Shown piece by piece: positions 5,745 to 58,392 of a stretch of 64,000 nucleotides of DNA (position 1 is the first letter of the stretch; each line of letters starts with the position of its first letter). The stretch is from Bacteroidota bacterium. GTDB taxonomy: Bacteria; Bacteroidota; Bacteroidia; Chitinophagales; Saprospiraceae. Where the stretch lies: NCBI GenBank assembly GCA_020160935.1, contig JAIUPL010000029.1:1-64000 (forward strand), in the 5' to 3' direction. The notes below the pieces were generated by a model. The model searched no databases. It saw only the letters and a program-made list of their open reading frames with translations, and was not told the origin of the DNA. The position numbers and the translations under genes are program-made.

Positions 5745-5932
5745 AAGGGGCAAAAGGCAAGGGGCAAGGGGCAAGGGGCAAAAGGCAAGAGGCAAGGGGC
5801 AAGAGGCAAGAGGCAAGGGGCAAGGGGCAAAAGGCAAGGGGCAAGGGGCAAAAGGCAAAAGACAGGAGGTAAATATACCTCTTGCCCCTTGCCTCTTGCC
5901 TTTTGCCTCTTGCCCCTTGCCCCTTGCCTCTT
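5745..5932. repeat. Palindromic heptamer-repeat element (locus A)
   Basis: The left arm has about 17 tandem 7-bp units of the type (A/G)(A/G)GGCAA from 5745. A short perfect hairpin, GAGGTA-AATA-TACCTC (5866-5881), marks the centre. The right arm has 7 units of the complementary type (TTGCCYY) to 5932. The arms can pair in many registers. The element ends 5 bases from the stop codon (5938-5940) of the minus-strand beta-barrel gene. On that gene's coding strand the G-rich arm (7 units) comes first. Open frames through it encode only low-complexity Gly/Lys/Gln or Pro/Leu/Cys and are not genes. Confidence 0.95.
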
Positions 5933-5937
5933 AAAAA

Positions 5938-6564
5938 CTAGTCTTCGTCATTCCGCCGATAATCCTTGTCCGTTTTACGTTTGTGAAAACGACCCCAGGA
6001 AAACCCAAACTTGAGGCTGGCTTGTCCATAAGCGCCCTCAATCTGGTCTGGCTGAATAGCGGCGATATCGATATCGTTTACGAAACGATAGCCGCCTTCG
6101 AGACCCAGGCGGAACCAGCGGAAAACATTGATTTCCACACCTGCTGAAGGTTGCATGACAAAGACACGGTCTTCGGCTCCGGCCAGGGTTACTTTGCCGC
6201 GGCCAAAGTCAAAATTGACCATCGGGTGAATAGCCTTGTAAGGCAGGAATGCATAACCCAGTTTAAAGGTGTTCCACTTGAAGTTAAAACGCTGGTTTTC
6301 AGTGCCTTGCCAGTTGAAGGCATCCGTTACGCGGTAATTCCCCCAACCAACGTTCAAGGATTTTCCGAATTCGAAGCCAAAAAAGCCTCCACGATTGAAC
6401 TCGTCAGAATTACCATAGGAGGTATATTGATGGTGATAACCTCCCCAGATTCCGGAAAAGCCCCAGCCGCGTTCACCAAGAACGGTTTCTTCCCGCTGGG
6501 CATAAGTAGAAACTGAAAAAAGAACTATAGAAAGGGCGATCAAAAACAACCTGTTGCGCTTCAT
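5938..6564 (-). CDS. Outer-membrane beta-barrel protein
   Basis: A 208-residue protein with a clear signal peptide (residues 1-22, ending STYAQ). The rest alternates polar and aromatic residues in strands such as GFSGIWGGYHHQYTSYG, GFFGFEFGKSLNVGWGNYRV, FRLGLEGGYRFV and GQASLKFGFSWGRF, typical of a small eight-strand outer-membrane barrel. The tail RKTDKDYRRNDED is charged. It is probably a porin-like or structural envelope protein; I cannot assign a ligand. A weak -7 box (TAACCTTG, 6624-6631 on the minus strand) precedes it. Its stop codon is followed after a few bases by the heptamer element. Confidence 0.75.
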   Translation of the reverse strand: MKRNRLFLIALSIVLFSVSTYAQREETVLGERGWGFSGIWGGYHHQYTSYGNSDEFNRGGFFGFEFGKSLNVGWGNYRVTDAFNWQGTENQRFNFKWNTFKLGYAFLPYKAIHPMVNFDFGRGKVTLAGAEDRVFVMQPSAGVEINVFRWFRLGLEGGYRFVNDIDIAAIQPDQIEGAYGQASLKFGFSWGRFHKRKTDKDYRRNDED

Positions 6565-6694
6565 AAGATGACTTTTTGATTTGTTTGTGAAGAAGTATTT
6601 CCAATCGACGCTGTAATACCCGGCAAGGTTACAGACGATTTGAAATGATTTTCACTTTTAACACATCTTAACTAAATCACCCGCCGAAACACTG

Positions 6695-6722
6695 GACTGT
6701 TGACTGAAAACGGTCGACTGTC
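6695..6722 (-). terminator. Hairpin directly after the T9SS gene 6723-7868
   Basis: A 12-bp stem (6695-6706 with 6711-6722, one mismatch and two G-T pairs on the + strand) around an AAAA loop, starting at the base after the stop codon. There is no T tract, so it may be a 3' stabilising hairpin rather than a true intrinsic terminator. Confidence 0.35.
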
Positions 6723-7868
6723 TTAAGGCTTCAATACCACCAGTCGTTTGGTTCCAATAATATTCCCTTTGCTGTCTACAAGACTGTAGAGGTATGTTCC
6801 TTTTCGGAAGTCTTCCAGTTCAAGTGTCATGGAACGATTGCCCGAGATGGCGTAGTTTTGTTTCCACACTACTTTACCGATGATATTGAAAATTTTCAGG
6901 GTGTATTCTTCTGAAGGAAGATTGGTGCAGTCAAAACGTACGCGTTCTACAGCAGGGTTCGGAAATGCCTGAATATTGGCTGCTCCAGGAGCATCCACTT
7001 CATTGTTGGCAACGATTGCATTATTTTTGAACTGTACGGATTGTACGCTCGACTGGTCATTGGACAGCGTTACTGCCGCTATTTCCTGGTGTTCGGTTCC
7101 ACTCAGAAAGTGATAGGAGACGATGGTATCTGTACCAATAAAATTGCCAATGGGCGTACCACCGCCACCTCCGCCGATTAAACCAGACAAGTCAAGCCAA
7201 CCCAGGAATGGCACTTTTACATCCATTCCTGAACTGATGTAGTCCGTTCTTTTGATACGCAAAACCTCATAATTGCCACCAGGAATTTGGCAATTTCCCC
7301 AGCCGTCCGTTAACTCGGTTCGATTGGTAGTCAGACGAATACGGAAAGAATCCGGAACAATCGGCAAGAACGACAACAAGGTGTCAGGTAATACATCCGA
7401 AGAGAAAGGAAGTGTCAGATTGAATTCCTGAGGATTGAGATCAAAAAAATTCAGAGGCACTTTCCGCTCAGTGATGGGTGGCGAATATTTTGCCAGCACC
7501 TGAATGCCAAAACTGTTGGCCGCCACACCAGCATACCCTAAACTTTGGAACTGCGTAGATGTAACATTGAGGTATGACTCCGCATTTGGAGTAATGGTAA
7601 CGAGTTCCGCGCCTGGGAAACTCATGGAATGGACGCCGGCACTGGCCGGTTGATAGATGACCTCATTTGTCTGATCGATCTGCAAACTGCTAAAGTCCCA
7701 CAACTGATTTCCGCCTGGAGGCGTAATCGCCTGGATATTAGTTGGATTCATATCGATTGCTATACGAAACGTATCGCCTGCAACAGGAAAGGTAGAGGCG
7801 GTAATGGTAATTTGGGCGGAAGAACTGATGCACAAGGCAGAGAATAGGGCCAGTAACATTCGTCTCAT
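6723..7868 (-). CDS. T9SS type A cargo protein
   Basis: A 381-residue secreted protein. The N-terminus MRRMLLALFSALCISSSAQ is a signal peptide. The open frame extends to 7925 without a better start. The body (about residues 20-295) is beta-rich and of unknown family, with repeated phrases about a value range (FPVAGDTFRIAIDM) and a glycine run near GLIGGGGGGTP. Residues 300-381 are a type A T9SS sorting domain: AFPNPAVERVRF, then YTLKIFNIIGKVV, LEDFRKGTYLYSLVD and a KRLVVLKP end. The protein should cross the outer membrane by T9SS and be cell-surface-attached or released. The substrate-binding role is unknown. Confidence 0.85.
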   Translation of the reverse strand: MRRMLLALFSALCISSSAQITITASTFPVAGDTFRIAIDMNPTNIQAITPPGGNQLWDFSSLQIDQTNEVIYQPASAGVHSMSFPGAELVTITPNAESYLNVTSTQFQSLGYAGVAANSFGIQVLAKYSPPITERKVPLNFFDLNPQEFNLTLPFSSDVLPDTLLSFLPIVPDSFRIRLTTNRTELTDGWGNCQIPGGNYEVLRIKRTDYISSGMDVKVPFLGWLDLSGLIGGGGGGTPIGNFIGTDTIVSYHFLSGTEHQEIAAVTLSNDQSSVQSVQFKNNAIVANNEVDAPGAANIQAFPNPAVERVRFDCTNLPSEEYTLKIFNIIGKVVWKQNYAISGNRSMTLELEDFRKGTYLYSLVDSKGNIIGTKRLVVLKP

Positions 7869-7942
7869 CGGATGGTTGTTAAATAAAAATGTGATTATCA
7901 GCAGTTGTTTAACCTTGTAAAACAACCATTTGTCAATGGCTT

Positions 7943-7950
7943 CAAAGGTA
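7943..7950 (-). promoter_or_regulatory. -7 promoter element for the T9SS gene 6723-7868
   Basis: TACCTTTG on the minus strand matches TAnnTTTG exactly. A TTTG lies upstream but with only 15 bases between, shorter than the usual 19-21. The expected transcript start near 7936 gives a leader of about 68 bases. Confidence 0.45.
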
Positions 7951-8065
7951 CGTCTGTTTTTGGTGCAAAAAACGATCGTGATGAAAATTGCCCGACAATA
8001 ACAAAAAAATTAAATTGTGGGTATTTGAAGCACTTTTGAGGTGCTGTGTTCAGGCCCTGCAAAAA

Positions 8066-9880
8066 CTAAAGTGCCTGCAAATCAACCAGTTTTCGATATA
8101 TCTGACCTTGTTGCATCAAACTTTCATGGGTTCCACGCTCGACAATACGCCCCTGATCCAGAACAATAATTTCATCGGCATCTTGTACGGTACTCAGGCG
8201 ATGCGCGATGACTAGAGCAGTTCTGTTTTGCAGCAATCGTTCCAGTGCGAACTGCACCAGTTGCTCAGACTCGGAATCGAGGGCAGAAGTTGCCTCATCC
8301 AGAATTAAAACCGGTGGATTTTTTAACAGAGCGCGTGCAATCGTCAGACGCTGCCTTTGTCCTCCACTAAGTTTGCCACCCCGGTCGCCGATATTGGCAT
8401 TGTAACCACCAGGCATCCGAACAATAAATTCATGGGCATTGGCCGCTTTGGCGGCGGCTTCGATGGCTTCATCGCTTACACCTTCCGTTCCAAATGCAAT
8501 ATTGTTGCGAACCGTATCATTGAACAATACGGCTTCCTGGCTTACAATGCCCATGAGTGCTCGAAGTTCGCGTGTGCGAACATCCCGAATGTCCTTGCCA
8601 TCAATCGTTATTTGCCCGCTGTTCACATCATAAAATCTTGGCAACAGGTCAGCGATGGTGCTTTTCCCGGCCCCGGACGCGCCCACAAGAGCCACTCTTT
8701 TGCCTTTGGGAATGCTCAGGCTGACCTCTTGCAAGGCGGGGCGCTCTGCATTCGGATATTGAAAAGAAACGTTTTTGAACTCGATCTTGTCCGAAAAGCC
8801 ATTGATTTCCAGGGCATTTGTCTTGTCGTGAATAACAAGGTCTGCCTCCAGAACAGCCTGTACGCGTTCAACCGCTCCCATACCTTTGCGGATACTGTAA
8901 ATAGCCGATGAAAACGCTTTTGCCGGGTCGATTACATTGAAAAATGCGTACAGAAATGTGATGAATGTTTCAGCGGACAGAGTACCTGAAAATACCTGCC
9001 GGGCGCCATACCACAATAATACAGACACCACACAGATACCGAGAAACTCCGATAAAGGCGAGGCTACATCGCGCCTGCGATAAATTCGGGTAAGCGAACG
9101 CGCATAGGCCTTGTTTTCAGTTGCAAAACGCTCGCGTTGGTAAGCCTCTGCATTGAATCCCTTGATGATTCGAAGACCGCCCAAAGTTTCTTCCACCAAT
9201 GAAACGATATATCCCAGGCGCGTTTGCGCCTCGCCCGACTGTTTGCGCAAACTACGCCCAATACCGCCGATGATCAAGGCTGTAAACACCAACAAACCGA
9301 ATACAAAAACAGTCAGAGAAGGAGAAATGTATACCATAAATGCCAGGCTGCCCAGAATGACAATTGGCTCACGCACAATGGCTTCCATTACGCCGACAAT
9401 GCTCCATTCGATTTCCTGAACATCAGAGGTAAAGCGACTCATCAAATCTCCTTTCCTTTCGTTTGAAAAAAAGGAAAGAGGCAATTCCAGCATTTTATTG
9501 ACCATTTTTTGCCTGAAATCGCGTACGATTCCATTTCTTACAGGAGCAAGAAAATACAAGGAAAGATAGCGAAACAGGTTTTTTCCAAAGAACACCAGAA
9601 TTAACATGGCACATACTACCAGCAACGCTTTTTCATGTCCCTGCTCGGCAATCAGCCTGTTAAAATACATTTTACTCTGTGCCTCGAAACCCGCAAATCC
9701 GTTTCCTTCCGGGAGGGTAGGGGACTGCTTGTCTGAAGTGTTTCTGTTGAACAGAATTTGCAAAAATGGTTGCAAAACCGGTATGCTGATCACCATAAAA
9801 ACCGACATCAGCAGGTTGCAGACGACCGCAAGGGTCAGCAGTTTTTTATAGGGTGCGTAATAACGTAGTAATTGAAACAT
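8066..9880 (-). CDS. ABC exporter, permease and ATPase fused (MsbA-type)
   Basis: A 604-residue half-transporter. Residues 1-330 hold six transmembrane helices of the type I exporter fold. The ATPase domain follows: Walker A GASGAGKST at 400-408, ABC signature LSGGQ at 504-508, Walker B VLILDEATS at about 524-532, and switch histidine H560 in AHRLS. The layout and the lack of a peptidase domain fit the MsbA/multidrug-lipid exporter group, which works as a homodimer to flip lipid A or drugs across the inner membrane. The exact substrate cannot be read from sequence. The gene lies 65 bases after hemF with its own likely promoter. Confidence 0.9.
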   Translation of the reverse strand: MFQLLRYYAPYKKLLTLAVVCNLLMSVFMVISIPVLQPFLQILFNRNTSDKQSPTLPEGNGFAGFEAQSKMYFNRLIAEQGHEKALLVVCAMLILVFFGKNLFRYLSLYFLAPVRNGIVRDFRQKMVNKMLELPLSFFSNERKGDLMSRFTSDVQEIEWSIVGVMEAIVREPIVILGSLAFMVYISPSLTVFVFGLLVFTALIIGGIGRSLRKQSGEAQTRLGYIVSLVEETLGGLRIIKGFNAEAYQRERFATENKAYARSLTRIYRRRDVASPLSEFLGICVVSVLLWYGARQVFSGTLSAETFITFLYAFFNVIDPAKAFSSAIYSIRKGMGAVERVQAVLEADLVIHDKTNALEINGFSDKIEFKNVSFQYPNAERPALQEVSLSIPKGKRVALVGASGAGKSTIADLLPRFYDVNSGQITIDGKDIRDVRTRELRALMGIVSQEAVLFNDTVRNNIAFGTEGVSDEAIEAAAKAANAHEFIVRMPGGYNANIGDRGGKLSGGQRQRLTIARALLKNPPVLILDEATSALDSESEQLVQFALERLLQNRTALVIAHRLSTVQDADEIIVLDQGRIVERGTHESLMQQGQIYRKLVDLQAL

Positions 9881-9905
9881 CGCAAGTCAGGTCGCAAAAG
9901 AACTG

Positions 9906-9934
9906 CAAAGGAAGAGTAATTTGAGGATATTCAA
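9906..9934 (-). promoter_or_regulatory. Possible promoter for the ABC exporter
   Basis: On the minus strand, TTG at 9934-9932, an 18-base spacer, then TTCCTTTG (9913-9906), one mismatch from TAnnTTTG. It lies in the 65-base gap after hemF. Confidence 0.4.
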
Positions 9935-9945
9935 TACCTGATCGT

Positions 9946-10842
9946 TCAAACCCAGTCTATACCTTTTTTTAGCAAGTCCAGGGTTTCTGCTTCCTTGCTT
10001 CCAGGTTCGGGTTTCCGATTGTACACCCAGGTGGCAACCGGGGGCATGCTCATCAGAATTGATTCTACGCGGCCATTGGTTTCAAGACCGAATTTGGTGC
10101 CCCGGTCCCATACCAGATTGAATTCTACATATCGGCCCCGGCGAAGCATCTGCCATTGTTTTTCCGGGTCGCCCCAGGCACGATGGCGCGCATTTTCGAG
10201 TAATTGGGTATAAACAGGTGCAAAAGTTTTCCCGACAGCATAGGTAAACTGGAAAATTTCTTCCTGATTCAGCCCCGTGTTTTCATCCAGGTAATCGAAA
10301 AAGATGCCACCAATTCCGCGTGTTTCCTGTCGGTGTTTGATAAAAAAATAATCGTCGGCGTTGGACTTGAATCTGGGGTAAAAATCACTGTGAAATCTAT
10401 CACAGGTGTTTTTTAATGACGCATGAAAAAAACGGGCGTCTTCCGGCACAACATAATGTGGGGTAAGATCGATACCACCACCAAACCACCAGCGTCCGTT
10501 TCCGGTTTCAAAATAACGCACGTTCATGTGAATAATCGGCGCCATGGGGCTGTGCGGGTGCAACACTATGGAAACGCCCGTGGCAAAGAATGTTGTTGGA
10601 GGCAGGTTCATGGCCTTGGCCGTCACATCCGGCAATGGCCCATGTACGGCGCTGAACATAACTCCTCCTTTTTCGATCGTGGCGCCTTCGAGTACCCTGC
10701 TGCGGCCGCCGCCGCCTTCCGGGCGTTGCCAGTTGTCTTCCAGAAAGCGGCCGCCGCCGTCTGCGGCTTCCAGTTGTTGGCAAATGTCGTCTTGCAGAAG
10801 GCGAAACTGTTCCGCAATATATTCTTTAGTAAGCATAGTCAT
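9946..10842 (-). CDS. hemF: Oxygen-dependent coproporphyrinogen III oxidase
   Basis: With the ATG at 10842 the protein has 298 residues, about the length of E. coli HemF (299). It decarboxylates two propionate groups of coproporphyrinogen III to give protoporphyrinogen IX in haem synthesis. Family signatures are present: GGGGRSRVLEGATIEKGGV, HMNVRYFETG with WWFGGGIDLTPHY, a KHRQETRGIGGIFFDYL block, RGRYVEFNLVWDRGTKFGL and a C-terminal SILMSMPPVATW. The start forms ATGA with the stop of the upstream NAPRTase-like gene (10839-10842), a sign of translational coupling. The frame remains open further upstream, but that start would overlap the neighbour more. Confidence 0.95.
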   Translation of the reverse strand: MTMLTKEYIAEQFRLLQDDICQQLEAADGGGRFLEDNWQRPEGGGGRSRVLEGATIEKGGVMFSAVHGPLPDVTAKAMNLPPTTFFATGVSIVLHPHSPMAPIIHMNVRYFETGNGRWWFGGGIDLTPHYVVPEDARFFHASLKNTCDRFHSDFYPRFKSNADDYFFIKHRQETRGIGGIFFDYLDENTGLNQEEIFQFTYAVGKTFAPVYTQLLENARHRAWGDPEKQWQMLRRGRYVEFNLVWDRGTKFGLETNGRVESILMSMPPVATWVYNRKPEPGSKEAETLDLLKKGIDWV

Positions 10843-11825
10843 AAAATGTCTGGCTGTGTGGCAGCCCACCCGAATGGATAATTATCAATTCCTGTTTCCC
10901 GGAAAAGATTGAATTGTTTGAAGGTTCGCTGGCGCAAATAAGCCAGGCGTTGTACCGGCAATGCAGGGTGCCCTTTTACAAGCACTGGTTGGTACAAATT
11001 CTGGAATCGGGTCATGTTTATTTCTTTTAATTGGCCGCCGGGCATCTCTTTCAGCCAAATGCGATTTTTACTGTCACTGGCCATTTCTTCATCTTTTCGA
11101 CTCAACCACAAGTCTGCCAAAGGCTGTTCTCCTTTGAAAAGACGCCGGATTTGTACCAATGGATCATCCATCTCTTTTTCAACATTACCGACACCTTCCT
11201 GTGGCAACATCGGACGGACGGGAAGGCGCATGTTTTCCAGTATTTCATCAGCAGAAGCGCCGCCAATGTAGGCTGCCCTGATATTCCAGCCCACTGGATT
11301 GGGTGGAAAAGCGGGCGGTGGCGGCGTATCTTCCTCGAGCAGGTTGTTTTGTTGCCAACGCAACCAGGCAGATTGTGTAGCCCTGTGCGTTTGTGCCCAT
11401 ACCAATACATTGAACGCAGACTCCATCAAGCGAATGTGTAAATCCGGGCCTTGTACTATGAGCAAAGGAGCGCCGGGCAAAAGCAGACTGCCTTCGGGAG
11501 GCATATTTACTTGCACCCTTAATTTTAATCGCTGAAGGTGATTCAAAAAACTCTCGCGAAACAGTGAGCGTCCTTGTGCATCCGTCACCTGCCCTAATTT
11601 GGTAATGACCTCGGGCGTGATCCTGAAAACCCGAATGTGTTCGGCCAATGAACTGGCTCCACAAGCAACGACAAAAGGAGTATCCGGAACATACTGAAGA
11701 TGTGCCACGCGCACTTGACGATATGCTCCACTTTCCCAGGATTGCTGTGCAGCAAACACTGGTTGCAGATCGGAAAGCCAATTGTGCGGAGCGTTGTGTT
11801 CTGATGTAAAGTTCGAATCGGGCAT
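10839..11825 (-). CDS. Nicotinate phosphoribosyltransferase-like protein lacking the catalytic core
   Basis: A 328-residue protein. Its first 165 residues follow the N-terminal domain of NAPRTase: VAHLQYVPDTPFVVACG, LFRESFLNHLQRLKL, then PPEGSLLLPGAPLLIVQGP and LMESAFNVLVWAQTHRATQ, equivalent to the EGT..F..EPLL.VEGP and LLE..LLN..NF.S..AT motifs. A remnant RAAYIGGASADE follows, but the segment that normally holds the phosphoribosyl-binding loop and the GT.AHS active-site histidine is replaced by RPMLPQEGVGN. The enzyme is therefore probably inactive as NAPRTase; a regulatory or structural role is possible. The start at 11825 lies 11 bases after the upstream gene and is preferred over one at 11921. 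It is coupled to hemF by ATGA. Confidence 0.65.
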   Translation of the reverse strand: MPDSNFTSEHNAPHNWLSDLQPVFAAQQSWESGAYRQVRVAHLQYVPDTPFVVACGASSLAEHIRVFRITPEVITKLGQVTDAQGRSLFRESFLNHLQRLKLRVQVNMPPEGSLLLPGAPLLIVQGPDLHIRLMESAFNVLVWAQTHRATQSAWLRWQQNNLLEEDTPPPPAFPPNPVGWNIRAAYIGGASADEILENMRLPVRPMLPQEGVGNVEKEMDDPLVQIRRLFKGEQPLADLWLSRKDEEMASDSKNRIWLKEMPGGQLKEINMTRFQNLYQPVLVKGHPALPVQRLAYLRQRTFKQFNLFRETGIDNYPFGWAATQPDIL

Positions 11826-11836
11826 ATGCAAGCGGC

Positions 11837-16601: not shown

Positions 16602-16621
16602 CTCCAGTTTGAAAAATGAAG

Positions 16622-25489: not shown

Positions 25490-26311
25490 ATGGCACGTTT
25501 ACAACAGGTCCGAAGCCCTTACAATAGCAGCAGGGTGGCTACGACTGGTACGGCCGGGGAGGGGTGGACACAAGAACCCATTCTGTGGAAACTGGTCGTT
25601 ATTACTGCATTGGCATACCTCCTCTGGAGCGATAAAATTTCGATCGTACTGGGGCCGGTGAGCGATGCAAATGCATCGCATGTTACAGGAGCCGTGAAGG
25701 CATCCTTGTTTGGAGGAAGTGTTTTTACGGAGGAAGCGAATAAGAAAATGGAAGCCGTTTATGTAGAACTGAAACCGGGGAGTCTGGATAATACCACATT
25801 TGCCATCGATCCGGCATATGCAAAACGCAATGCTTTGGATAAAGAAGAAGTACGCACCCGAATGGAAAAATGCAGCGATTATATAGAGCGATTTGCACCT
25901 GTTGCCATGGCCGAAATGCGAAAATATGGCATGCCTGCGAGTATCATTCTGGCACAGGGGCTACTGGAGAGCAACGCGGGAGATAGCCGCTTGTCCAAAA
26001 ATGCCAATAACCATTTTGGTATCAAATGTTTTTCCAAAACCTGTAAAAAGGGACATTGCACCAATTTCTCCGATGATTCTCACAAGGATTTCTTCGTAAA
26101 ATATGGCAATGCCTGGAGTAGTTACCGGGCACATTCAGAAATGTTGAAAAAATCCAAACGATATCGGGCTTTGTTCGATCTGGATGCAACAGATTACAAG
26201 AACTGGGCAAAAGGACTGGAGAAGTCAGGATATGCAACGGATCGCATGTATGCCGAAAAACTTATGGCGCTGATCTACTCCCTGAATTTGCACCGCTTCG
26301 ATGGCGTGTAA
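25490..26311 (+). CDS. Membrane-anchored glucosaminidase-domain protein
   Basis: A 273-residue protein. Residues 32-48 (LWKLVVITALAYLLWSD) are a single transmembrane anchor after a positively charged start. The C-terminal glucosaminidase domain (about 130-268) has the catalytic glutamate E160 in AQGLLESNAG, then NNHFGIKC and YRAHSEMLKKSKRYRALF. C180, C185 and C190 lie in a short insertion. It is presumably an N-acetylglucosaminidase acting on peptidoglycan from the inner membrane. It resembles the secreted enzyme at 3590 in domain but not in anchor. Its stop codon is followed at once by the repeat element at 26317-26449. Confidence 0.85.
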   Translation: MARLQQVRSPYNSSRVATTGTAGEGWTQEPILWKLVVITALAYLLWSDKISIVLGPVSDANASHVTGAVKASLFGGSVFTEEANKKMEAVYVELKPGSLDNTTFAIDPAYAKRNALDKEEVRTRMEKCSDYIERFAPVAMAEMRKYGMPASIILAQGLLESNAGDSRLSKNANNHFGIKCFSKTCKKGHCTNFSDDSHKDFFVKYGNAWSSYRAHSEMLKKSKRYRALFDLDATDYKNWAKGLEKSGYATDRMYAEKLMALIYSLNLHRFDGV

Positions 26312-26316
26312 AAGGG

Positions 26317-26449
26317 GGAAGAGCAAGGGGCAAGAGACAAGGGGCAAGAGACAAGAGACAAGGGGCAAGAGACAAGGAGCGTTTGGCGTCATTAAGGAAC
26401 GAAAAATTTGGGATGACTCATCTTGATCCTTGTCTCTTGCTTCTTGCCC
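26317..26449. repeat. Palindromic heptamer-repeat element (locus B)
   Basis: Left arm 26317-26377 with 7-bp units alternating GGGGCAA and GAGACAA. Right arm 26428-26449 (CCTTGTCTCTTGCTTCTTGC and two more bases) is complementary to the left. The 50-base loop between them carries no repeat. It starts 5 bases after the stop codon of the glucosaminidase gene (26309-26311), with the G-rich arm first on that gene's strand, as at locus A. The unit family is the same as at locus A. Confidence 0.9.
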
Positions 26450-50230: not shown

Positions 50231-50980
50231 ATGAAATCCTCCAATCAATTTCTGTTGATCGCCTTGATAACCCTTTTTGTAAACAACCTGCTTTCGGCCC
50301 AGGTGGCCGTCGGTCTGAAAGGCGGCGCCAATTTTGGCAATGTGTATATGACAAAAACGCTGGATAACCTGGCGCCCGACTTCAAATCGGCTACCGGTGC
50401 CCTGGCCGGTGGGGTAGTGGAGGCCAATTTTGGCAAGTATTTCGCAGTCCAGTCCGAGTTGAACTGGGTGCAGAAAGGTTTTCGTTTTAGCGAAGATATC
50501 AACGTCCCGATCGGCAAACTGGACATTCCGGCTGGTGTGGAAGCCACTATTCGGACCAACTACCTGGAACTCCCCTTATTGGCAAAAGCCAAAATCGGAA
50601 ACGATGTAGTACAGGCCTATGCCGTACTCGGCCCTTCTTTCGGCTATGCGATGAATGGGAAACTCATTACTCGCACACGTTTTTTCTTTGAATTCGATCC
50701 AATTCGTACTAATTTGAACTTTGACGACCTCGATTACAATCGTTTCGAAGTATCTGCCGTGGGCGGCGTGGGTATGCAGGTGAATTTCAACGGGGGTAAA
50801 TGGTTTGCCGACGCCCGATACACGCAGGGCTTGACACAATTGTACAACTTTCCCGTTGTAAATGAGCAAATTAAGAATCGCGGTATTGCACTGAGCACCG
50901 GTGTTATGATCAATTTAGTTGATGCGCCAGCCAAAAAGAAAGCGCCGGTTCGTCGGGCTGCTGTGGCGCGCAGGTGGTAA
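50231..50980 (+). CDS. PorT-like outer-membrane beta-barrel protein
   Basis: A 249-residue protein with a signal peptide (residues 1-23, ending LLSAQ). The body has strands typical of outer-membrane barrels of the PorT/OMP_b-brl_2 type: VAVGLKGGANFGNVYM, VEANFGKYFAVQSELNWVQKGF, YLELPLLAKAKIG and GGVGMQVNFNGGKWFADARYTQGL. The C-terminus is basic (KKKAPVRRAAVARRW), unusual for a barrel whose last strand normally ends in an aromatic. A CACCTTTG box at 50170-50177 may be its -7 element. The gene is divergent from gyrA and is followed at once by the palindrome at 50981. Confidence 0.85.
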   Translation: MKSSNQFLLIALITLFVNNLLSAQVAVGLKGGANFGNVYMTKTLDNLAPDFKSATGALAGGVVEANFGKYFAVQSELNWVQKGFRFSEDINVPIGKLDIPAGVEATIRTNYLELPLLAKAKIGNDVVQAYAVLGPSFGYAMNGKLITRTRFFFEFDPIRTNLNFDDLDYNRFEVSAVGGVGMQVNFNGGKWFADARYTQGLTQLYNFPVVNEQIKNRGIALSTGVMINLVDAPAKKKAPVRRAAVARRW

Positions 50981-51268
50981 CACGGATCACACGGATAAAG
51001 CGAATTTACACTGATTTTGTGGCCTGTCGGCCATTTGTTGCTGATTTTTAACGGGTTAAATCATTCGCCTTCGGCGAATGGAACAAGCGCTAGGCTAAGG
51101 AAAACAGGAAAGAGAAATTGGGCTCATAATTGTTTGTTTTTCGATAAGTGAAGCCCATTTGATCTGTCTCACACGCCGAAGGCGTGGCGTTGATCCGTTA
51201 AAAATCAGCAATAAGTGGCCGGCAGGCCACAAAATCAGCGTAAATTCGCTTTATCCGTGTAATCCGTG
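50981..51268. repeat. Long imperfect palindrome (74-bp arms) after an outer-membrane gene (locus F)
   Basis: Left arm 50981-51054 pairs with right arm 51195-51268 with five transition mismatches. Each arm has its own small hairpin: TGGCC-TGTC-GGCCA (51020-51033) and GTGGCC-GGCA-GGCCAC (51215-51230). The 140-base loop adds CATTCGCC-TTC-GGCGAATG (51062-51080) and CACGCC-GAA-GGCGTG (51172-51186). It starts at the base after the TAA of the gene ending at 50980. The intergenic stretch 50981-51393 holds this element and, from 51269 to 51393, the leader of the next gene, in which I see no further feature. Confidence 0.9.
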
Positions 51269-51393
51269 TCCCCTCACTCTACGAAGGGTGTAGCCGAACC
51301 AATGCTTTTCCCAAAAAAATTATTGCAAAACAGATATCGAAAATCGAATTTTGGATTTGTACATAGTCTTTCCTTTGTGCCAAAATTTACTGC

Positions 51394-53040
51394 ATGCACA
51401 GACTTGCCCTTTTGTTTGTTTTTTTTCCAATTGTATTGTTTGCACAAACTCCCAAACTGAAAAAGTACTGGGTGGAATTTACGGATAAGAACAATTCGCC
51501 TTATTGCACGTGCCAACCTGCTGAATTTCTTTCCGCCCGTTCCATCGAACGCAGGGCCAAAGCCGGCATTGAAGTAGTGGAGAACGACCTTCCTCCCAAT
51601 CCGGAATACCTGAAAGCGCTGCAATACAAAGGCGCACAAATTCATACGGTATCGCGCTGGATGAACGCTGCGGCCATTATCAGCGACTCCAGTACCGCTG
51701 TAGCCATTCGCCAACTGCCATTTGTATCGAATGTTCAATACCTCGGGCCGCACCTCAAATACCGCAATCCTATCAATCGACCACAAAAAAAACGGCGCCC
51801 ATTGGCGGCTTCTCCTAAAATTGAAGGCAAAAGCACCTATTGGGGCTACGCGGCGCTTCAAAATAACTTACTCGGTGTACCGGTATTGCACATGGCCGGT
51901 ATCAAGGGCGAAGGGATTTATGTTGCTGTGATGGATGGGGGCTTTACCAATGTGGATACCTTGCCGTTTTTTGATAGCCTGGCTGTAAACAACCGCCTTT
52001 TTTCAGCCCATGATTTTGTAGAACATGACGAGGCAGTGTTTGAAGCCGCCCAGCATGGCACTTCGGTTTTGTCGGTCATGGGAGCCTACACCCCTGATTA
52101 TTTTGTGGGTACTGCACCGGAGGCCACTTATTTCCTCCTGAAAACGGAAGATACTGGTGGGGAATACCCGGTAGAAGAAAGCAACTGGATAGCAGGCGCC
52201 GAATGGGCCGACAGTGCAGGAGTGGACATTATCAATGCCTCATTGGGGTACACCGCTTTCAATGATTCCACGCTGGGCCACTGGATTTGGCAACTCGATG
52301 GTCGTACGGCTATTGGTTCGAAAGGCGCTGCTATTGCTGCTACCAAAGGTATGATTATCTGCAACAGCGCCGGTAATGAGGGCGATGGCCCATGGAAGTA
52401 TATTGGCGTACCGGCAGATGCCCCGGGCATCATTTCCGTGGGTTCGGTGCAACACAATGCCCGAAAATCGGCGTTCAGTTCTTTTGGGCCTACCCGCGAC
52501 GGCCGCATCAAGCCCGATTTGTCGGCACCAGGCGATGAAGTGGTAACTGCCGGAAATGTGGGTACCCAACTGGGCGTTTCCAGCGGTACATCCCTGGCGT
52601 CTCCCATGCTGGCCGGCAGTATTGCAGCGCTCTGGAGTGCCTATCCGGAAAAAACGGCGGCGGAAATTCTGGATGCCGTCTTTGCCTCTGCCGATCAATA
52701 TACCAGCCCCGACAACAAACGTGGCTACGGATTGCCGGATATGACGGCAGCATGGTTCAGCCTCGGACAATTTGTAAATAATCGCTATATCTTTGCCTAT
52801 AACCGGACAAAAGGCACACTCCGTATCCTGCTTCCCGATGTAAATGTGCCTTCAGACGCTACTTTTGTGCTTCGAAATGTTTTTGGTGAGCAAATTCAGG
52901 TTACTCAGCCTATGTTTTCTCCCAACGAAATATCCATATTGACCTTTCAAAACCTCGAACATCTGCCTCCTGGCTCCTATTTCGTAGATGTAATTTACAA
53001 AGATGGGAAGATTAGTGTGCCTGTGGGGGTTTGGAAATAA
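51394..53040 (+). CDS. Subtilisin-family serine protease, T9SS cargo
   Basis: A 548-residue secreted protease (signal peptide 1-18, ending VLFAQ). Residues 20-125 resemble an inhibitor-like propeptide. The catalytic triad is D181 in VAVMDGGF, H221 in QHGTSVLSVMG and S400 in SGTSLASPMLAG, with oxyanion N327 in CNSAGNEGDG. The last 75 residues (about 472-548, RILLPDVNV, VLRNVFGEQIQVTQ, LPPGSYFVDVIYKDGKIS) are a type A T9SS sorting domain. It should be delivered to the surface or released, where it degrades proteins. A TTCCTTTG box lies near 51370. Its stop codon abuts the decamer repeat at 53041. Confidence 0.9.
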   Translation: MHRLALLFVFFPIVLFAQTPKLKKYWVEFTDKNNSPYCTCQPAEFLSARSIERRAKAGIEVVENDLPPNPEYLKALQYKGAQIHTVSRWMNAAAIISDSSTAVAIRQLPFVSNVQYLGPHLKYRNPINRPQKKRRPLAASPKIEGKSTYWGYAALQNNLLGVPVLHMAGIKGEGIYVAVMDGGFTNVDTLPFFDSLAVNNRLFSAHDFVEHDEAVFEAAQHGTSVLSVMGAYTPDYFVGTAPEATYFLLKTEDTGGEYPVEESNWIAGAEWADSAGVDIINASLGYTAFNDSTLGHWIWQLDGRTAIGSKGAAIAATKGMIICNSAGNEGDGPWKYIGVPADAPGIISVGSVQHNARKSAFSSFGPTRDGRIKPDLSAPGDEVVTAGNVGTQLGVSSGTSLASPMLAGSIAALWSAYPEKTAAEILDAVFASADQYTSPDNKRGYGLPDMTAAWFSLGQFVNNRYIFAYNRTKGTLRILLPDVNVPSDATFVLRNVFGEQIQVTQPMFSPNEISILTFQNLEHLPPGSYFVDVIYKDGKISVPVGVWK

Positions 53041-53226
53041 GGGTTGATATTTTGGGTTGATGAAGGTTGATAAAGGTTGATGAGGGTTGATATTTATCGG
53101 CTCGGTATGCAGCAATCTGTCCCTATTTGGGAATGCTGAATATCAACCCTCATCAACCTTTATCAACCTTCATCAACTCTAAAAATCAACCCTCATCAAC
53201 TCTAAAAATCAACCCTCATCAACCCC
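53041..53226. repeat. Palindromic decamer-repeat element with conserved core (locus D)
   Basis: Left arm 53041-53093: five GGTTGAT units about 10 bp apart. Core 53096-53138: ATCGGCTCGGTATG, CAATCTGTCC and AATGCT are shared with locus E. Right arm 53139-53226: eight ATCAAC units, with a 23-bp stretch present twice in tandem. It begins at the base after the stop codon (53038-53040) of the protease gene. Peptides containing NPHQPLSTF read from it are not genes. Confidence 0.92.
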
Positions 53227-53262
53227 TTCTTTTAATCCCGCGCTTCCCAACGCTCCGCGCAC

Positions 53263-55431
53263 ATGAATCGAATCTTACTTTTACTCGTTGTTGCCCTCTT
53301 ATGCCATACTTTTATCTCAAATGCCCAGGTAATTACGATTGAATCGGCGCGCGCATTGCCCGCTGGGTCGTTTGTTACCGTACGTGGAATCGTCACAAAC
53401 GGGCTAGAATTGGGGAAAATACGTTACCTACAGGATGCCACAGCAGGCATAGCGGCCTATCCGGGTAGTGGCTCCATGCCAGGCTTTGAAAGCAACGTGT
53501 TGCTGGGCGACAGCATCGAAGTAAGCGGCACAACGACGAATTTCCAGGGTTTGCTGGAAATTACCCCCATCACGTCCTACACCGTTATTTCCTCCGGAAA
53601 CGCAGTTCCTGCACCTCAACCGGTATCCATTACCGATCTTTCCAATGACCTGGAGGGTAAACTGGTGCGACTGCCGTGTGTAACTTTTGATGCATCCGGT
53701 GGCTCGTTCAATAGTAGCGGATCATATCCGTTTACTGATACGGACGGGCATACTGCTGAAATTTATTTGCGCAGCAATCATCCGCTACTGGGATTGCCCA
53801 TCCCGGAAAATCCGGTTCAACTGGTGGCCATTGTTTCAGATTTCTTTGGTTATCAGTTGCTTCCGCGTTTTGAAACAGATTTCCAGGAAGCGCCATGTTT
53901 TTATTTTTCCAGTAATCCGGATCAATCCAATATTCAAACGAATGGCTTCACACTATACTGGAGCACCAACCTCAATTCCACCTTTAAACTGAGATATGGC
54001 ACGAGCCCGGATCCCAATCTGGAGGTAACAATTCCAGGTTCCGGCATTTCTTCATCTTACACGTTCTCCAACCTCGAACCAGGCAGAATTTACTGGGCAC
54101 AGGTGGAGGCTACGCACAATGGCGAAAAAATCTATTCTCCAATCATGCCATTTGCGACCCGCTCTTTGTCGACCGGGCAGATAAAAGTATATTTCAACCA
54201 CCCGATCAATGAATCCGTAGCTGGCGGACTTATTCCCGACGGACAAAGTGCCACTGCCGCGGTCAACGAAACCATTGCCCGTATCAATTCTGCCCAGCAA
54301 ACCATCGATGTGGCGATGTACAACAACAGCCGCAGTGATATTACCAACGCATTGATTGCCGCAGTCAACCGGGGCGTTCAAGTGCGGTATGTAGCCGCAG
54401 AAGAAACGGAAAATTATGCCCTCGAACAGCAAATCAACTTTCCGGTAGTATATGGCAATACCTATGCCCTGATGCACAACAAGTTTATGATTATCGATGC
54501 CGACCTGAGTGCCCAGGCGTGGCTGATGGGCGGCTCCATGAACTGGACCAACGTTAATATTCAAAATGACTACAACAACACCTTGTTTATTCAGGATCAA
54601 TCAATTGCACGAGGTTACCGAATCGAGTTTGAAGAAATGTGGGGCAGTTCCAACGCAACCCCGGATCTGGTTAACAGCCGCTTTGGCAGTGAAAAAAGAA
54701 ACAATACGCCACACCGATATATCATAGGCGACATCCCTGTAGAGTCGTGGTTTTCACCTTCTGATCAAACTACCAGCCACATAACGGAAGCACTGGAAAC
54801 GGCCGATTCGGAAATTCTGTTCGGCTTGCTGACATTTACCAAAAACGATCAGGCAGATGCCATTATCGACCGTTTTCTGGCAGGGGCGTCCGTACGTGGA
54901 CTGATTGAAAACACGGGCGACGTAGGCTCCGAATTTGGGTACCTGACCGGATATGGCATGGATGTACAGCGCCACGTATTCCCGGGTACCATGCACCACA
55001 AATACGGTATTATCGATGCCAATGACCCTGCTTCCGAGCCTGTGCTGGTAACGGGTTCTCACAACTGGACTTTTGCTGCAGAAACGGAAAACGACGAGAA
55101 TACCCTCGTGATCCACGATGCCAACCTTGCACTGCTCTACAAAGCAGAGTTTGAACAACGCTGGCAGGAAAATATTACTGACATCCCGACTGTTTCACAA
55201 GCACCGGCTGTGACCCTTGCACCGAATCCTGTTTCAGATGCCATTTGCCTAAAACATGAGGATATTGGCATCATACGAGTTATAGACGTATGGGGAAGAA
55301 GGCTGATAGAACAGCAAGCCGCCAATACGGGTAATACCCAATTGGATGTCAAATTCTTGCCCGCTGGCAACTACTTCGTCTTGTTTCAAACAGATCATGG
55401 CTACACCCGACTTTCATTTCAAAAGATGTAG
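53263..55431 (+). CDS. Secreted phospholipase-D-like protein with OB-type, FnIII and T9SS domains
   Basis: A 722-residue protein (signal peptide 1-23, ending NAQ). Residues 25-205 have an OB-fold-like pattern (GSFVTVRGIVTNG, LLGDSIEVSGT) seen in secreted nucleases and DNA-binding proteins. Residues 215-300 are FnIII-like (FTLYWSTNLNSTFKLRYG). Two HKD half-sites follow: HNKFMIID (about 406-413) and HHKYGIID (about 574-581), each followed by GSMNW or GSHNW. Residues 640-722 form a type A sorting domain. HKD enzymes hydrolyse phosphodiesters, so DNA or lipid is a likely substrate, but I cannot decide which. It overlaps the next gene by 35 bases. Confidence 0.88.
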   Translation: MNRILLLLVVALLCHTFISNAQVITIESARALPAGSFVTVRGIVTNGLELGKIRYLQDATAGIAAYPGSGSMPGFESNVLLGDSIEVSGTTTNFQGLLEITPITSYTVISSGNAVPAPQPVSITDLSNDLEGKLVRLPCVTFDASGGSFNSSGSYPFTDTDGHTAEIYLRSNHPLLGLPIPENPVQLVAIVSDFFGYQLLPRFETDFQEAPCFYFSSNPDQSNIQTNGFTLYWSTNLNSTFKLRYGTSPDPNLEVTIPGSGISSSYTFSNLEPGRIYWAQVEATHNGEKIYSPIMPFATRSLSTGQIKVYFNHPINESVAGGLIPDGQSATAAVNETIARINSAQQTIDVAMYNNSRSDITNALIAAVNRGVQVRYVAAEETENYALEQQINFPVVYGNTYALMHNKFMIIDADLSAQAWLMGGSMNWTNVNIQNDYNNTLFIQDQSIARGYRIEFEEMWGSSNATPDLVNSRFGSEKRNNTPHRYIIGDIPVESWFSPSDQTTSHITEALETADSEILFGLLTFTKNDQADAIIDRFLAGASVRGLIENTGDVGSEFGYLTGYGMDVQRHVFPGTMHHKYGIIDANDPASEPVLVTGSHNWTFAAETENDENTLVIHDANLALLYKAEFEQRWQENITDIPTVSQAPAVTLAPNPVSDAICLKHEDIGIIRVIDVWGRRLIEQQAANTGNTQLDVKFLPAGNYFVLFQTDHGYTRLSFQKM

Positions 55432-56119
55432 CATTCAGCAGCAAGGCGCCGCACACCCGGTTGGCACGGATGCGATTTTGTTGGGCGCCTGGACGAATAT
55501 CGGCAAGGCTTTGCGCATTCTCGACATCGGAACAGGTACGGGCGTTGTTGCACTGATGCTGGCACAACGAACTGAAAATCACGAGCATGTACAGATCGAT
55601 GCGGTTGAAATACACCAGGGCTCAGCAGCCTGCGCTGCCCGGAATTTTGCTGCTTCTCCCTGGAATAAACGATTGCATGTGGTGGAATTATCGATTCAGG
55701 AATTTGCGCAACAAACGGACCTGCAGTATGATCTGATCGTCAGTAACCCGCCCTATTTTTCTGAAACGACCAAAGCCCCCGATCCTACACGGCGACTGGG
55801 GCGTCATATTGAGTCGTTGCCACCGCAGGATATGTTGCGCGCAGTTCGAAAATTACTTGCGCCTAATGGCCGTTTTTCGGTCATTTTACCTGTAAAAGAA
55901 GGCTGGAAATGGTGTGAATTGGCCGTTCCGCTCGGCTTGTGCTGGACACGTATCACAGAAGTGTATGGCCGAAAAGAAAAACCTGCCGAACGCTTAATAA
56001 TTGAATTCCAACGCAATCCTTATTTGTTTCAACGCGATTCTCTCGTAGTTTACGATCAAGGACAAGAATATAGCGAAGCGTATGGTGCGCTGACGAGGGA
56101 ATTTTATTTGAGGGGTTGA
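55397..56119 (+). CDS. trmN6: tRNA1(Val) adenine-37 N6-methyltransferase-like protein
   Basis: A 240-residue SAM-dependent methyltransferase. The glycine loop is LDIGTGTGVVALMLAQR and the amino-methylating active site is NPPYF in DLIVSNPPYFSE. The N-terminus FHFKRCSIQQQGAAHPVGTDAILLGAW matches the YfiC/TrmN6 family that methylates A37 of tRNA-Val. The ATG at 55397 lies inside the preceding gene (35-base overlap). The C-terminus ends EFYLRG, and its TGA is the first GGTTGA unit of the repeat element at 56113, so the end of the gene is set by the repeat. Confidence 0.85.
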   Translation: MATPDFHFKRCSIQQQGAAHPVGTDAILLGAWTNIGKALRILDIGTGTGVVALMLAQRTENHEHVQIDAVEIHQGSAACAARNFAASPWNKRLHVVELSIQEFAQQTDLQYDLIVSNPPYFSETTKAPDPTRRLGRHIESLPPQDMLRAVRKLLAPNGRFSVILPVKEGWKWCELAVPLGLCWTRITEVYGRKEKPAERLIIEFQRNPYLFQRDSLVVYDQGQEYSEAYGALTREFYLRG

Positions 56120-56260
56120 TAAAGGTTGATGAGGGTTGATAAAGGTTGATAATCATCGGCTCGGTATGGAACAATCTGTCCTTATTCTGAAATGCTAAAT
56201 ATCAACCCTCATCAACCTTTATCAACCCTCATCAACTTTTATCAACCTTTATCAACCTTT
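56113..56260. repeat. Palindromic decamer-repeat element between convergent genes (locus E)
   Basis: Left arm 56113-56152: four GGTTGAT units. Core 56155-56198: ATCGGCTCGGTATG, CAATCTGTCC and AATGCT as at locus D, with about nine differences over 75 bases. Right arm 56199-56260: six ATCAAC units. The stop codon of the upstream methyltransferase (56117-56119) and that of galE on the other strand (56252-56254) are both TGA inside GGTTGAT units. Confidence 0.92.
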
Positions 56261-57259
56261 CACCTGCCATCTCCACGCATCCACCAGTGCCTGATCCATG
56301 CTGCGTGTTGCCTTCCATCCAAGTACTTTTTCCGATTTTTCTACACCGGCATATACCGCAGTCACATCGCCGGAACGGCGCGGGCCTATAGAATAATTCA
56401 GGGAGACGCCTGTGACACGTTCGAAACTTTTGATAAGTTCCATAACGCTTACGCCCTGGCCCGTACCAATATTAAAAATATCATAATAACTGGACGCTGT
56501 AGTTTTCATCAGGTGTGAAAGTGCTGCTACATGTGCCTCCGCCAAATCGAGCACATGGATGTAGTCGCGGATGCAGGTACCATCCGGGGTAGGGTAGTCG
56601 TCGCCGAAAACAGTCAGGGATGTACGAAGGCCGGCAGCCGTCTGGGTAATGAATGGCACGAGGTTGTTTGGTACGCCTCTCGGCAATTCGCCGATAGCAG
56701 CAGATGGGTGCGCTCCAATGGGGTTGAAATACCGCAAAGCAATGATTTTCAAAGGAATACCTGCCGAAACCGTGTCATGCAGAATTTCTTCACCAATCTG
56801 TTTTGTATTTCCATACACAGAAAATGCCGGTTTTACAGGTGTTTTTTCCGTAACCGGCAATGCATCCGGTTCGCCGTACACTGTGCAGGAAGATGAAAAG
56901 ATGAGATGGGGAATATGGCACTCTTGCATGGTTTTGAGTAGTACGATGAGCGCGCCCACATTGTTGTCATAGTATTCCAGGGGTTTTTGCATCGATTCAC
57001 CCACCGCCTTGAACGCAGCGAAGTGAATGATCCCCTGAATTTTTTCATCCCTGAAAATCCGTCGCAAGGTCTCCGGGTTATGGCAATTTTCAGTGTAAGT
57101 GACAGGCCTGAAACCCAGGATACTTTCCAGGCCGTCGATAACACCGGCTTCAGAATTGGAAAAATCATCCAGAATAATGGGCGTAAATCCCGCTTCTGCC
57201 AATGCAACAACTGTATGAGAGCCAATGAAGCCGGCTCCCCCCGTGACGAGTATGTTCAT
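56252..57259 (-). CDS. galE: UDP-glucose 4-epimerase
   Basis: A 335-residue extended SDR enzyme interconverting UDP-glucose and UDP-galactose. The NAD loop is GGAGFIGSH (7-15). The catalytic residues are S126-T127 in SSSCTVYG and Y151-K155 in YGNTK. ALRYFNPIGAHPSAAIGE and DGTCIRDYIHVLDLAEAH are family signatures. It supplies galactose for surface glycans. The C-terminus WQVKG ends with a stop from the repeat at 56113-56260. It lies 5 bases after the coiled-coil membrane gene on the same strand. Confidence 0.96.
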   Translation of the reverse strand: MNILVTGGAGFIGSHTVVALAEAGFTPIILDDFSNSEAGVIDGLESILGFRPVTYTENCHNPETLRRIFRDEKIQGIIHFAAFKAVGESMQKPLEYYDNNVGALIVLLKTMQECHIPHLIFSSSCTVYGEPDALPVTEKTPVKPAFSVYGNTKQIGEEILHDTVSAGIPLKIIALRYFNPIGAHPSAAIGELPRGVPNNLVPFITQTAAGLRTSLTVFGDDYPTPDGTCIRDYIHVLDLAEAHVAALSHLMKTTASSYYDIFNIGTGQGVSVMELIKSFERVTGVSLNYSIGPRRSGDVTAVYAGVEKSEKVLGWKATRSMDQALVDAWRWQVKG

Positions 57260-57264
57260 GAAGA

Positions 57265-58251
57265 TTAATCGAATAGTTTCGTGTAGTCATTTTCATCCCG
57301 CAGGATTTCCTTGGGCGGGGTATTCAGGTCAAGCGGTTTTTCTGCGCCCGACTTTTTATTTTTTCCTGGTTCTGACAACAGGGGGCTTTGTTGTTCCCAT
57401 TGCTCCAGCAAACGGAGGCCGTCTTCTTCAAATACGCCGTTTTGAAGGTCGATGGAGGCCATCAGGTTTTTGCTGGTATCCATAAAGCGCTCCATTTCGC
57501 CTACTTTCTGCCCTACATCATCGGCCAGTGCTTCCAAGGCCTGGTCGTAGAGGGCACGCTGGTCGGGGTCGCCGCTCAGGATACTCATAGCAGAACGAAT
57601 TGCACTATGGCTGGCAGCAATGGCTTTGTACTCCTGTTCTTTCAGATTGACTTGGTCTTTGGTATCTTCCAGAACTAGTTCTGAGTTTTCGTACATTTTA
57701 GTCAGCACCCGATACAACACTTCCATACGCTTGTAGAGCACATCATACTTTTCGTTGGCGTCCTGCAAGCGCCCCGCTTTGCGCGCCGACAAGGCCATGT
57801 TTTTATCGTCGTTCTGTTTTTTAGCCCGCTCTGCGATGGTCATGTTTTTCTGGATCTCTGCATTGTTGCCATCCATGATCCCTTTTAATTGTCGCATCTG
57901 GCCGCGCAAGGCACCTATTTGCTTACTCATCGAACGCAGGTTGTCTTCCAGGTCTTCAATGTATGATTTCAAAATCGAAATCGGATCGATTTTTACAAAT
58001 AACCCCGTGATAGCCCGCATGACCGACTTATACATATACCAAACCAGGTTGCGCATTTTCGGGTCCAGCACCATATAAATAATCGCTGCCAGTGCCGCCA
58101 ACATTCCCGCGAGGTACAAGGTGTTTTGCGCCAGCACAATTAACGTTGGCAGCAATGCACTCAACAGCACACCGCCTCCAATAACAGCAGCAGCCAGAAA
58201 CAACAAGCCGGTAATCCCTTCCGGGCGTTGCCAAAATGATTTTTGCTCCAT
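57265..58251 (-). CDS. PspA-like coiled-coil protein with N-terminal membrane segments
   Basis: A 328-residue protein. Two hydrophobic helices (about 13-33 and 38-61) follow MEQKSFWQRPEG. From residue 85 to 290 it is a long heptad-rich helix (SYIEDLEDNLRSMSKQIGALRGQMRQLK, ILSGDPDQRALYDQALEALADDVG), like PspA/IM30 proteins attached to the membrane. The C-terminal tail is charged and ends DENDYTKLFD. The frame stays open beyond 58251 through the heptamer repeat, but that part is repeat-encoded (LLTTHYSPLTTH) and the ATG at 58251 is preferred. It is probably co-transcribed with the smaller coiled-coil gene upstream and with galE. Function unknown; a membrane stress role is a guess. Confidence 0.72.
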   Translation of the reverse strand: MEQKSFWQRPEGITGLLFLAAAVIGGGVLLSALLPTLIVLAQNTLYLAGMLAALAAIIYMVLDPKMRNLVWYMYKSVMRAITGLFVKIDPISILKSYIEDLEDNLRSMSKQIGALRGQMRQLKGIMDGNNAEIQKNMTIAERAKKQNDDKNMALSARKAGRLQDANEKYDVLYKRMEVLYRVLTKMYENSELVLEDTKDQVNLKEQEYKAIAASHSAIRSAMSILSGDPDQRALYDQALEALADDVGQKVGEMERFMDTSKNLMASIDLQNGVFEEDGLRLLEQWEQQSPLLSEPGKNKKSGAEKPLDLNTPPKEILRDENDYTKLFD

Positions 58252-58257
58252 GTGTGA

Positions 58258-58392
58258 TAGTGAGTGGTGAGTGGTGAGTGGTGAGTAGTGAGTAGTGAGT
58301 GGTGAGTAGTGAGTGGTGAGTAGTGAGTAGTGAGCAGGGGCACTCACTACTCACTACTCACTACTCACCACTCACTACTCACCACTCACTAC
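58258..58392. repeat. Palindromic heptamer-repeat element between two coiled-coil genes (locus C)
   Basis: Left arm 58258-58334: eleven GTGAGT(A/G) heptamers. Right arm 58341-58392: seven ACTCAC(T/C) heptamers. The 6-base centre is AGGGGC. The stop codon (TAG, 58391-58389 on the minus strand) of the upstream gene lies in the first unit of the element, so the repeat sets the end of the protein. The other end lies 6 bases from the start of the next gene on the same strand. Unit length is 7, as at loci A and B, but the sequence is unrelated. Confidence 0.95.

Follow-up and report, generated by a model that had tools for sequence, protein, structure and literature searches.

Tandem-armed palindromic repeats at gene ends in Saprospiraceae: persistent sites, changing occupants

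What are the hairpins built of complementary tandem units that stand at gene ends in a 64-kb stretch of a Saprospiraceae genome? The stretch, hereafter the window, comprises positions 1 to 64,000 of contig JAIUPL010000029.1 (Bacteroidota bacterium, GCA_020160935.1). An initial annotation, made from the sequence alone, had described five such hairpins there and offered two readings of them, namely, a slippable 3′-end structure for termination or mRNA stability, or a mobile repeat selecting the same landing site. On the evidence of sequence comparison, many families share one plan, and sites persist between species while their occupants change. We consider that the elements are probably dispersed, non-coding, tandem-armed palindromic repeats, similar to repetitive extragenic palindromic (REP) sequences or miniature inverted-repeat transposable elements (MITEs), that replace one another in place.

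The five hairpins, with their tandem complementary arms, are real. Tandem Repeats Finder (TRF) calls tandem arrays at all five places, and each hairpin folds far better than its dinucleotide shuffles (none of 200 as good in any case), with z-scores of -11.5, -5.9, -14.9, -9.0, and -12.2 for the elements starting at 5744, 26312, 53041, 56113, and 58254, respectively. An Rfam 15 scan of the window gave no match above the gathering score. The wider search that the initial annotation had proposed was run with a detector that looks for tandem arrays having arrays of the complementary units close by. It covered 1,237,891 of the 5,836,501 bp of the genome (contigs C21 and C43, most of C51 and C31, and the window contig) and found 125 elements, or about 101 per Mb. 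This density may be slightly high, as the large contigs sampled had already shown matches, and the detector misses two window elements, at 26312 and 50981 (the latter described below). The same sample shuffled in 3-base blocks yielded none. The elements are 71-440 bp long (median 155 bp) and fall into at least a dozen unit families (GTTGATRARG, CAAGRGG, GTGAGTR, AGTCCTR, GAGTTAT, GTGAGAG, GTTATY, GTTTTGG, GATGAAT, GTTGAGG, AGGATT, and ACGGATT), and the families have cores that are palindromic and arms set apart by a characteristic distance. Units of 8-10 bp and longer occur besides those of 7 bp, and many units have no GGG run.

The same detector gave equal densities in three relatives: 100.5 per Mb in Saprospiraceae bacterium isolate new MAG-362 (hereafter MAG-362; 527 kb), whose DNA is about 85% identical over 16 long alignments, and 108 and 106 per Mb in G006 (194 kb) and G016 (123 kb), two more distant congeners. 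Single 20-kb pieces of G007, G009, G021, and G026 held no element and are too small to call these genomes free. The GTGAGTR pattern, counted on both strands, has 379 matches in this genome, 326 in G006, 11 in G010, 5 in G016, 2 in G026, and one each in G025 and G035, with none in the other 33 of the 40 genomes searched. The reversed control pattern GAGTGRTGAGTGRTGAGTG is itself frequent (174 matches in G008, 59 in G024, 53 in this genome, 51 in G005, 27 in G020, and 23 in G006), and its frequency in G008, G024, G005, and G020 suggests further unit families in the genus. Among the matches listed, the AGTCCT core was carried by MAG-362, and other species may have it too. Chance origin can be rejected from the shuffled sample, the fold z-scores, and a k-mer detector that called none of 1200 shuffled gaps; an assembly artefact, from the equal density of different sequences in four genomes; and simple slippage in situ from unique sequence, from the dispersal of the families. 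Spread by phages is also rejected, the AGTCCT core pattern having no match in viral contigs. The GTGAGTR unit is found there in 36 stretches, and three of the seven inspected are inverted pairs within 270 bp, at 65-70% G+C, so the unit is not confined to this group. Viral contigs L343, L345, and L350 carry these inverted tandem arrays in quite different genomes, and the L343 and L345 elements are nearly identical.

The comparison with MAG-362 shows sites that are kept while their occupants are exchanged. The MAG-362 stretches were picked through 16 element-bearing genes, so that sites occupied in our genome are somewhat over-represented, and loci found by the AGTCCT pattern were excluded from the resulting set of 196 orthologous gaps. 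Both genomes have an element of an assigned family in 42 of these gaps, versus about 11 under independence, our genome alone has one in 7, MAG-362 alone in 3, and neither in 144; presence thus differs at 10 of the 52 occupied sites. The family is the same at 27 of the 42 shared sites, one family is shared and another added at 4, and the family differs at 11. The gene flanks of the orthologous gaps are 87.6% identical. AGTCCT cores are 70.3% identical in 11 orthologous pairs, exactly as in 219 non-orthologous comparisons (70.3%, p = 0.87); of 83 pairs for which a hairpin or element had been called on both sides, this analysis set aside the 29 that could not be given a family. The cores of all families gave 0.671 in 36 orthologous pairs versus 0.656 (p = 0.24). 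AGTCCT cores on different contigs of MAG-362 are 98% alike, which indicates recent copying in that genome; the closest pair among the 24 AGTCCT cores of our own sample is 89% identical. With dispersed families, near-identical MAG-362 cores, and relatives differing in presence, absence, and family, the mobile repeat proposed by the initial annotation fits better than its slippable terminator. Short non-tandem hairpins are likewise present, absent, or different at orthologous MAG-362 gene ends (C43:315467, C21:50424, and C31:1105 in our genome, G000). At the clpP-clpX junction (identified by Pfam; G000 C43:105716-105984), our genome and MAG-362 have an AGTCCT element, and the junction in G006 and G016 carries a short hairpin with a T-run after it; the element may have replaced a terminator.

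Within the window, the site of the GTGAGTR hairpin at 58254..58392 (11.7 + 7.3 units of 7 in TRF) is the best display of a kept site with a changed occupant. Its last unit contains the TAG stop (58389-58391) of the minus-strand gene 58389-58934, and the occupant is GTGAGTTGTGAAT in G016, GATGAAT in MAG-362, and GTTTGATG in G006. Two hairpins with 10-bp GTTGATRARG units are members of a single dispersed family, and their centres, of about 49 bp, are related. The first, at 53041..53226 (TRF array 53055-53225), lies directly after the TAA of gene 51394-53040; MAG-362 has a shorter member of the family at this site, and G016 has no element, its gap reading TAA followed by CCTTCTTTTAATC, with no target duplication visible when the two gaps are compared. 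The second, at 56113..56260, lies between convergent genes, and its first unit contains the TGA stop (56117-56119) of gene 55346-56119. The G016 gap there is -2 bp, without an element, and MAG-362 (G040 C58, ortholog of window 56119-56251) has a GTTGAT hairpin with a further 378-bp palindrome in its centre, flanked by 12-bp direct repeats GCTCGGGGTCAG that resemble a transposition footprint. The CAAGAGAC/CAAGGGGC hairpin at 26312..26446 begins right after the TAA of gene 25490-26311 and has a long centre; TRF calls its left array (26312-26376, about 8 units) and not its imperfect right arm (to 26446). G006 and G016 have a GTTTAT-unit hairpin in this gap, and MAG-362 lacks the 26312 family there. 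The CAAGGGG/CAAGAGG/CAAAAGG hairpin at 5744..5932 (15.4 + 7.9 units of 7 in TRF) reaches to within 5 bp of 5938-5940, where the minus-strand gene 5938-6564 has its stop codon. A sixth, imperfect element with ACGGATT-type arms, at 50981..51269 directly after the TAA (50978-50980) of gene 50231-50980, had escaped the initial annotation; it was not found in MAG-362, where the orthologous gap is 168 bp versus 455 bp here. The GTTGAT window elements have at least about 40 relatives elsewhere in the genome, and the CAAGRGG and GTGAGTR elements dozens each, these being lower bounds counted from 40 scored of 75-122 first-look candidates per family.

Comparison also shows that some occupants are hairpins standing in the middle of a hairpin of a different family, whose units are left outside. 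In our sample, seven gaps have one family inside another, four of them GTTGAG within GTTATY. Fourteen AGGATT hairpins were found in the MAG-362 stretches, and four of them stand inside GTTGAT or GTGAGA units with junctions that, judged by eye, are mirrored (C51:178796, C21:57473, C31:127659, and, less exactly, C51:281914).

The relation to stop codons claimed for the five hairpins stood up: two begin right after a TAA, one lies at 5 bp, and two have the stop inside a unit. Across the sample, genes were called with a simple dicodon scorer, some of whose boundaries may be off, and three of the 125 elements were dropped (two in called genes and one without a flanking gene). The remaining 122 lie in convergent (44), same-direction (62), and divergent (16) gaps, the sample having 175, 610, and 172 such gaps, respectively. 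Same-direction elements have a median distance of 0 bp to the upstream stop and 23 bp to the downstream start, and 52 of the 62 are closer to the stop; 36 of the 44 convergent elements have both stops within 25 bp. Distance to the stop is not random, since 94 of the 106 non-divergent elements overlap a stop or lie within 10 bp of it, versus 67.4 +/- 2.5 by random placement in the same gaps, which accounts for part of the proximity and not all of it. A large share of the remainder may reflect selection against harm to the start of the next gene. Stops are also supplied by the repeats themselves: the stop lies inside the array at 76 of 150 facing gene ends, and precedes it by 0-10 bp at another 52. 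In 6 of the 11 named families (GTTGAT, GTGAGAG, GTGAGTR, AGTCCT, GTTGAG, and GATGAAT), arms read inward average 2.4-3.0 frames with stops, versus 0-0.9 for arms read outward, and among 138 genes ending at elements the repeat-encoded tail LSPES occurs in four and SYEL in three. Of the single landing site suggested by the initial annotation, the sharing of sites far above chance is upheld; some new hairpins, however, sit at old centres, and flushness with the stop comes in part from tiny gaps and unit-supplied stops. It was also right that the G-rich arm comes first on the coding strand, but this is automatic for a palindrome with a G-rich left arm, read on either strand (the left arm is richer in G than in C in 105 of the 125 elements).

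The arms and cores bear on whether pairing is maintained in RNA or in DNA. In the 24 AGTCCT cores, both partners vary and pairing is retained at 17 of the 29 stem pairs; the doubly changed cells number 83, versus 25.9 +/- 4.0 in shuffles, and the singly changed ones 12. If RNA pairing were under selection, G-U mismatches would be expected to exceed A-C mismatches in the transcribed orientation, which is not clearly the case. The counts are 140 G-U versus 120 A-C in 61 same-direction elements (p = 0.24), 81 versus 97 in 44 convergent elements, and 36 versus 43 in 16 divergent elements, with one further element of over 320 bp dropped. Nor does the set of 125 elements have a U-tract beyond about 3 nt after the arm, the T fraction being 0.27, 0.46, 0.39, and 0.33, then 0.21-0.34. 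Neither an intrinsic terminator, by its U-tract, nor RNA-level selection, by its G-U excess, is thus seen, and DNA-level copying would explain the palindromes better than RNA selection. Template switching, which has been studied in RNA genes and not in dispersed repeats, can create or mend a perfect stem, paired changes included, in a single event (PMC8794818), and such a process probably suits the paired changes better than selection on RNA.

If the elements are dispersed repeats that replace one another, they would keep their places in short gene junctions over long periods, for the most part next to a stop codon. The palindrome would be made and repaired in DNA by fold-back or template-switch copying from arm to arm, the arms would grow and shrink by slippage, and replacement would proceed by insertion into the hairpin centre or by its conversion. 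Their position at stop codons could come from compact junctions, from the loss of insertions that damage the next start, and from stops in the inward-reading units of many families. Any effect on termination or mRNA stability would be secondary. A more specific and tentative proposal is a hairpin-for-hairpin exchange, in which each family lands on the tip of a hairpin already in place, be it a native terminator or another repeat, overwrites it from the centre outward, and is perfected by strand switching at replication. If this were true, a 3′-end hairpin would be a permanent station for which palindromes compete, and the class would be a self-perpetuating, DNA-level hairpin parasite without an enzyme of its own.

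It is unlikely, in our estimation, that the elements are functional 3′-end RNA structures, either bidirectional terminators or mRNA stabilisers, whose pairing is selected while their sequence is free to change. Such structures would explain the preference for convergent over divergent gaps, the contact with stops, the persistence of sites despite changing sequences, and the clpP-clpX element in place of a short hairpin and T-run. They accord poorly, however, with the lack of a U-tract and of a G-U excess, with 16 of 122 elements in divergent gaps, and with a presence that differs at 10 of 52 sites; the first three of these points also count against the slippable terminator of the initial annotation. 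Hot-spot insertion alone, with loss and independent re-insertion in the few tolerated base pairs and only coincidental family swaps, could draw on tiny element-free gaps, such as the 5 bp at 57259-57264 of our genome, where G006 and G016 have GTGTTT-type hairpins. We nevertheless judge it highly improbable, because lineage-specific sites are so few (7 and 3) that about 0.1 coincident independent gains would be expected among the 196 gaps, versus 11 swaps, and because some new occupants are flanked by units of another family.

We also doubt that a dedicated transposase, for example a REP-associated tyrosine transposase (RAYT) or IS200-like Y1 enzyme, moves the elements by targeting stop codons or hairpins directly. 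Several observations would suit it. The dispersed families have near-identical copies, and the 378-bp MAG-362 insertion at the 56113 site lies between direct repeats. Of the two Y1 matches in this genome, the one inspected, an intact gene (L137, G000:C42), is preceded by another hairpin type with tandem units: upstream of it, at about 1195-1380, tandem ACATACGAATAC units are followed by a long GGGCGTTGCCCT...AGGGC hairpin. The Y1-type hairpin has nine copies at eight places in our contigs C21 and C51, each beside a CTCTCAC array, and in MAG-362 one copy occupies the centre of a GTGAGA element. Y1 transposase matches, on the other hand, number 2 in this genome, 2 in MAG-362, 3 in G006, 2 in G016, and 0-6 in each of seven further relatives, and no link with Y1 copy number is seen across this genome and the ten relatives. 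The dispersed families are also unlike the Y1-linked hairpin, and the comparison with G016 at 53041 gave no target duplication.

Several results weigh against the reading as dispersed repeats exchanged in place. No enzyme that would move them was identified; Y1 matches are equally few in element-rich genomes and in the others. Orthologous cores look inherited in GTTTTG (0.74 versus 0.52) and GTTATY (0.73 versus 0.58), with three pairs each. Presence is weakly shared with the congeners: among 98 non-divergent syntenic gap pairs with G006 and G016, 22 are occupied in both, 16 in our genome only, 20 in the relative only, and 40 in neither (Fisher p = 0.022 pooled, 0.26 for G006, and 0.037 for G016). 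Stop supply fails in 5 of the 11 named families, CAAGGGG and GTTTTG having few inward stops, GAGTTAT as many outward, and GTTATT and CAGTC more outward. Covariation was counted in the AGTCCT family only. Mirrored junctions are limited to 4 of the 14 MAG-362 AGGATT hairpins; at least three are unmirrored beyond the element (C144:129374, C50:1538, and L238:6848), and the rest either show mirroring over a few bases or are hard to judge. A role in termination is also conceivable from the sequences.

The statement of the initial annotation that no named element has this description was too strong. Inverted heptamer arrays near stops are already known in Xanthomonas, as are REPs that abut and supply stop codons. 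Our literature search, with most subscription journals outside its reach, found no account of such elements in Saprospiraceae. Cyanobacterial small dispersed repeat (SDR) elements are small structured mobile repeats of 21-27 nt in tandem heptamers, the short tandemly repeated repetitive (STRR) sequences, nested and with compensatory changes. The available parts of the published accounts allow three closer comparisons. Xanthomonas (GGGAATC) and Nostoc (GGGGAYT) have intergenic, G-rich tandem heptamers nearer the upstream open reading frame, and two Xanthomonas species have 70 and 75 cases in which a convergent pair can fold into a stem-loop (PMC4692102). The elements here share with them 7-bp tandem units that lie close to the stop and are rich in G on the coding strand. 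Those repeats, however, have one unit type per genome and were studied as G-quadruplexes, and conserved palindromic cores, many families, nesting, and in-place swaps, all found here, do not figure in the available part of that account (PMC4692102). Convergent REPs lie mostly less than 20 bp from both 3′ ends, the ends of GTAG-REPs often supply the TAG stop (PMC3733652), and clusters of REPINs arise by insertion into or next to REPINs (PMC3733652, PMC3116915). Like REPs and REPINs, our elements are palindromic, dispersed, and located at 3′ ends in convergent and unidirectional gaps; unlike the 20-40 bp REPs, they measure 71-440 bp and have tandem arms and many families per genome. The GTAG/CGTC tag of REPs is unpaired at one end, whereas here GTAG lies within the paired core stem (AGTCCT, GTGAGA, and a few others). 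TAACTGA repeats are intergenic tandem heptamers found also in five Bacteroidetes, and, as here, the gap of a close relative is in some cases shorter and without obvious repeats; they are, however, direct repeats, and those of the Beggiatoaceae genome examined stand for the most part immediately before a start codon (PMC4679880). As far as the searches show, what is new is the combination of many tandem-armed families on one plan, in-place turnover, and evidence that pairing is maintained at the DNA level.

Compensatory changes in stems commonly count as proof that an RNA is functional. In these genomes paired change is strong in the AGTCCT family, the one counted, and the G-U asymmetry expected of RNA selection is lacking over all families, in sequences that appear to replace one another. 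If our reading is right, these genomes would offer hundreds of natural replicates for measuring the copying of palindromes at the DNA level, and would advise caution before covarying intergenic hairpins are declared to be RNA genes. That sites persist while their occupants turn over separates the need for a hairpin from the need for one particular hairpin, and hundreds of hairpins at gene ends would make unusually clear material on how repeats spread and how their palindromy is kept up.

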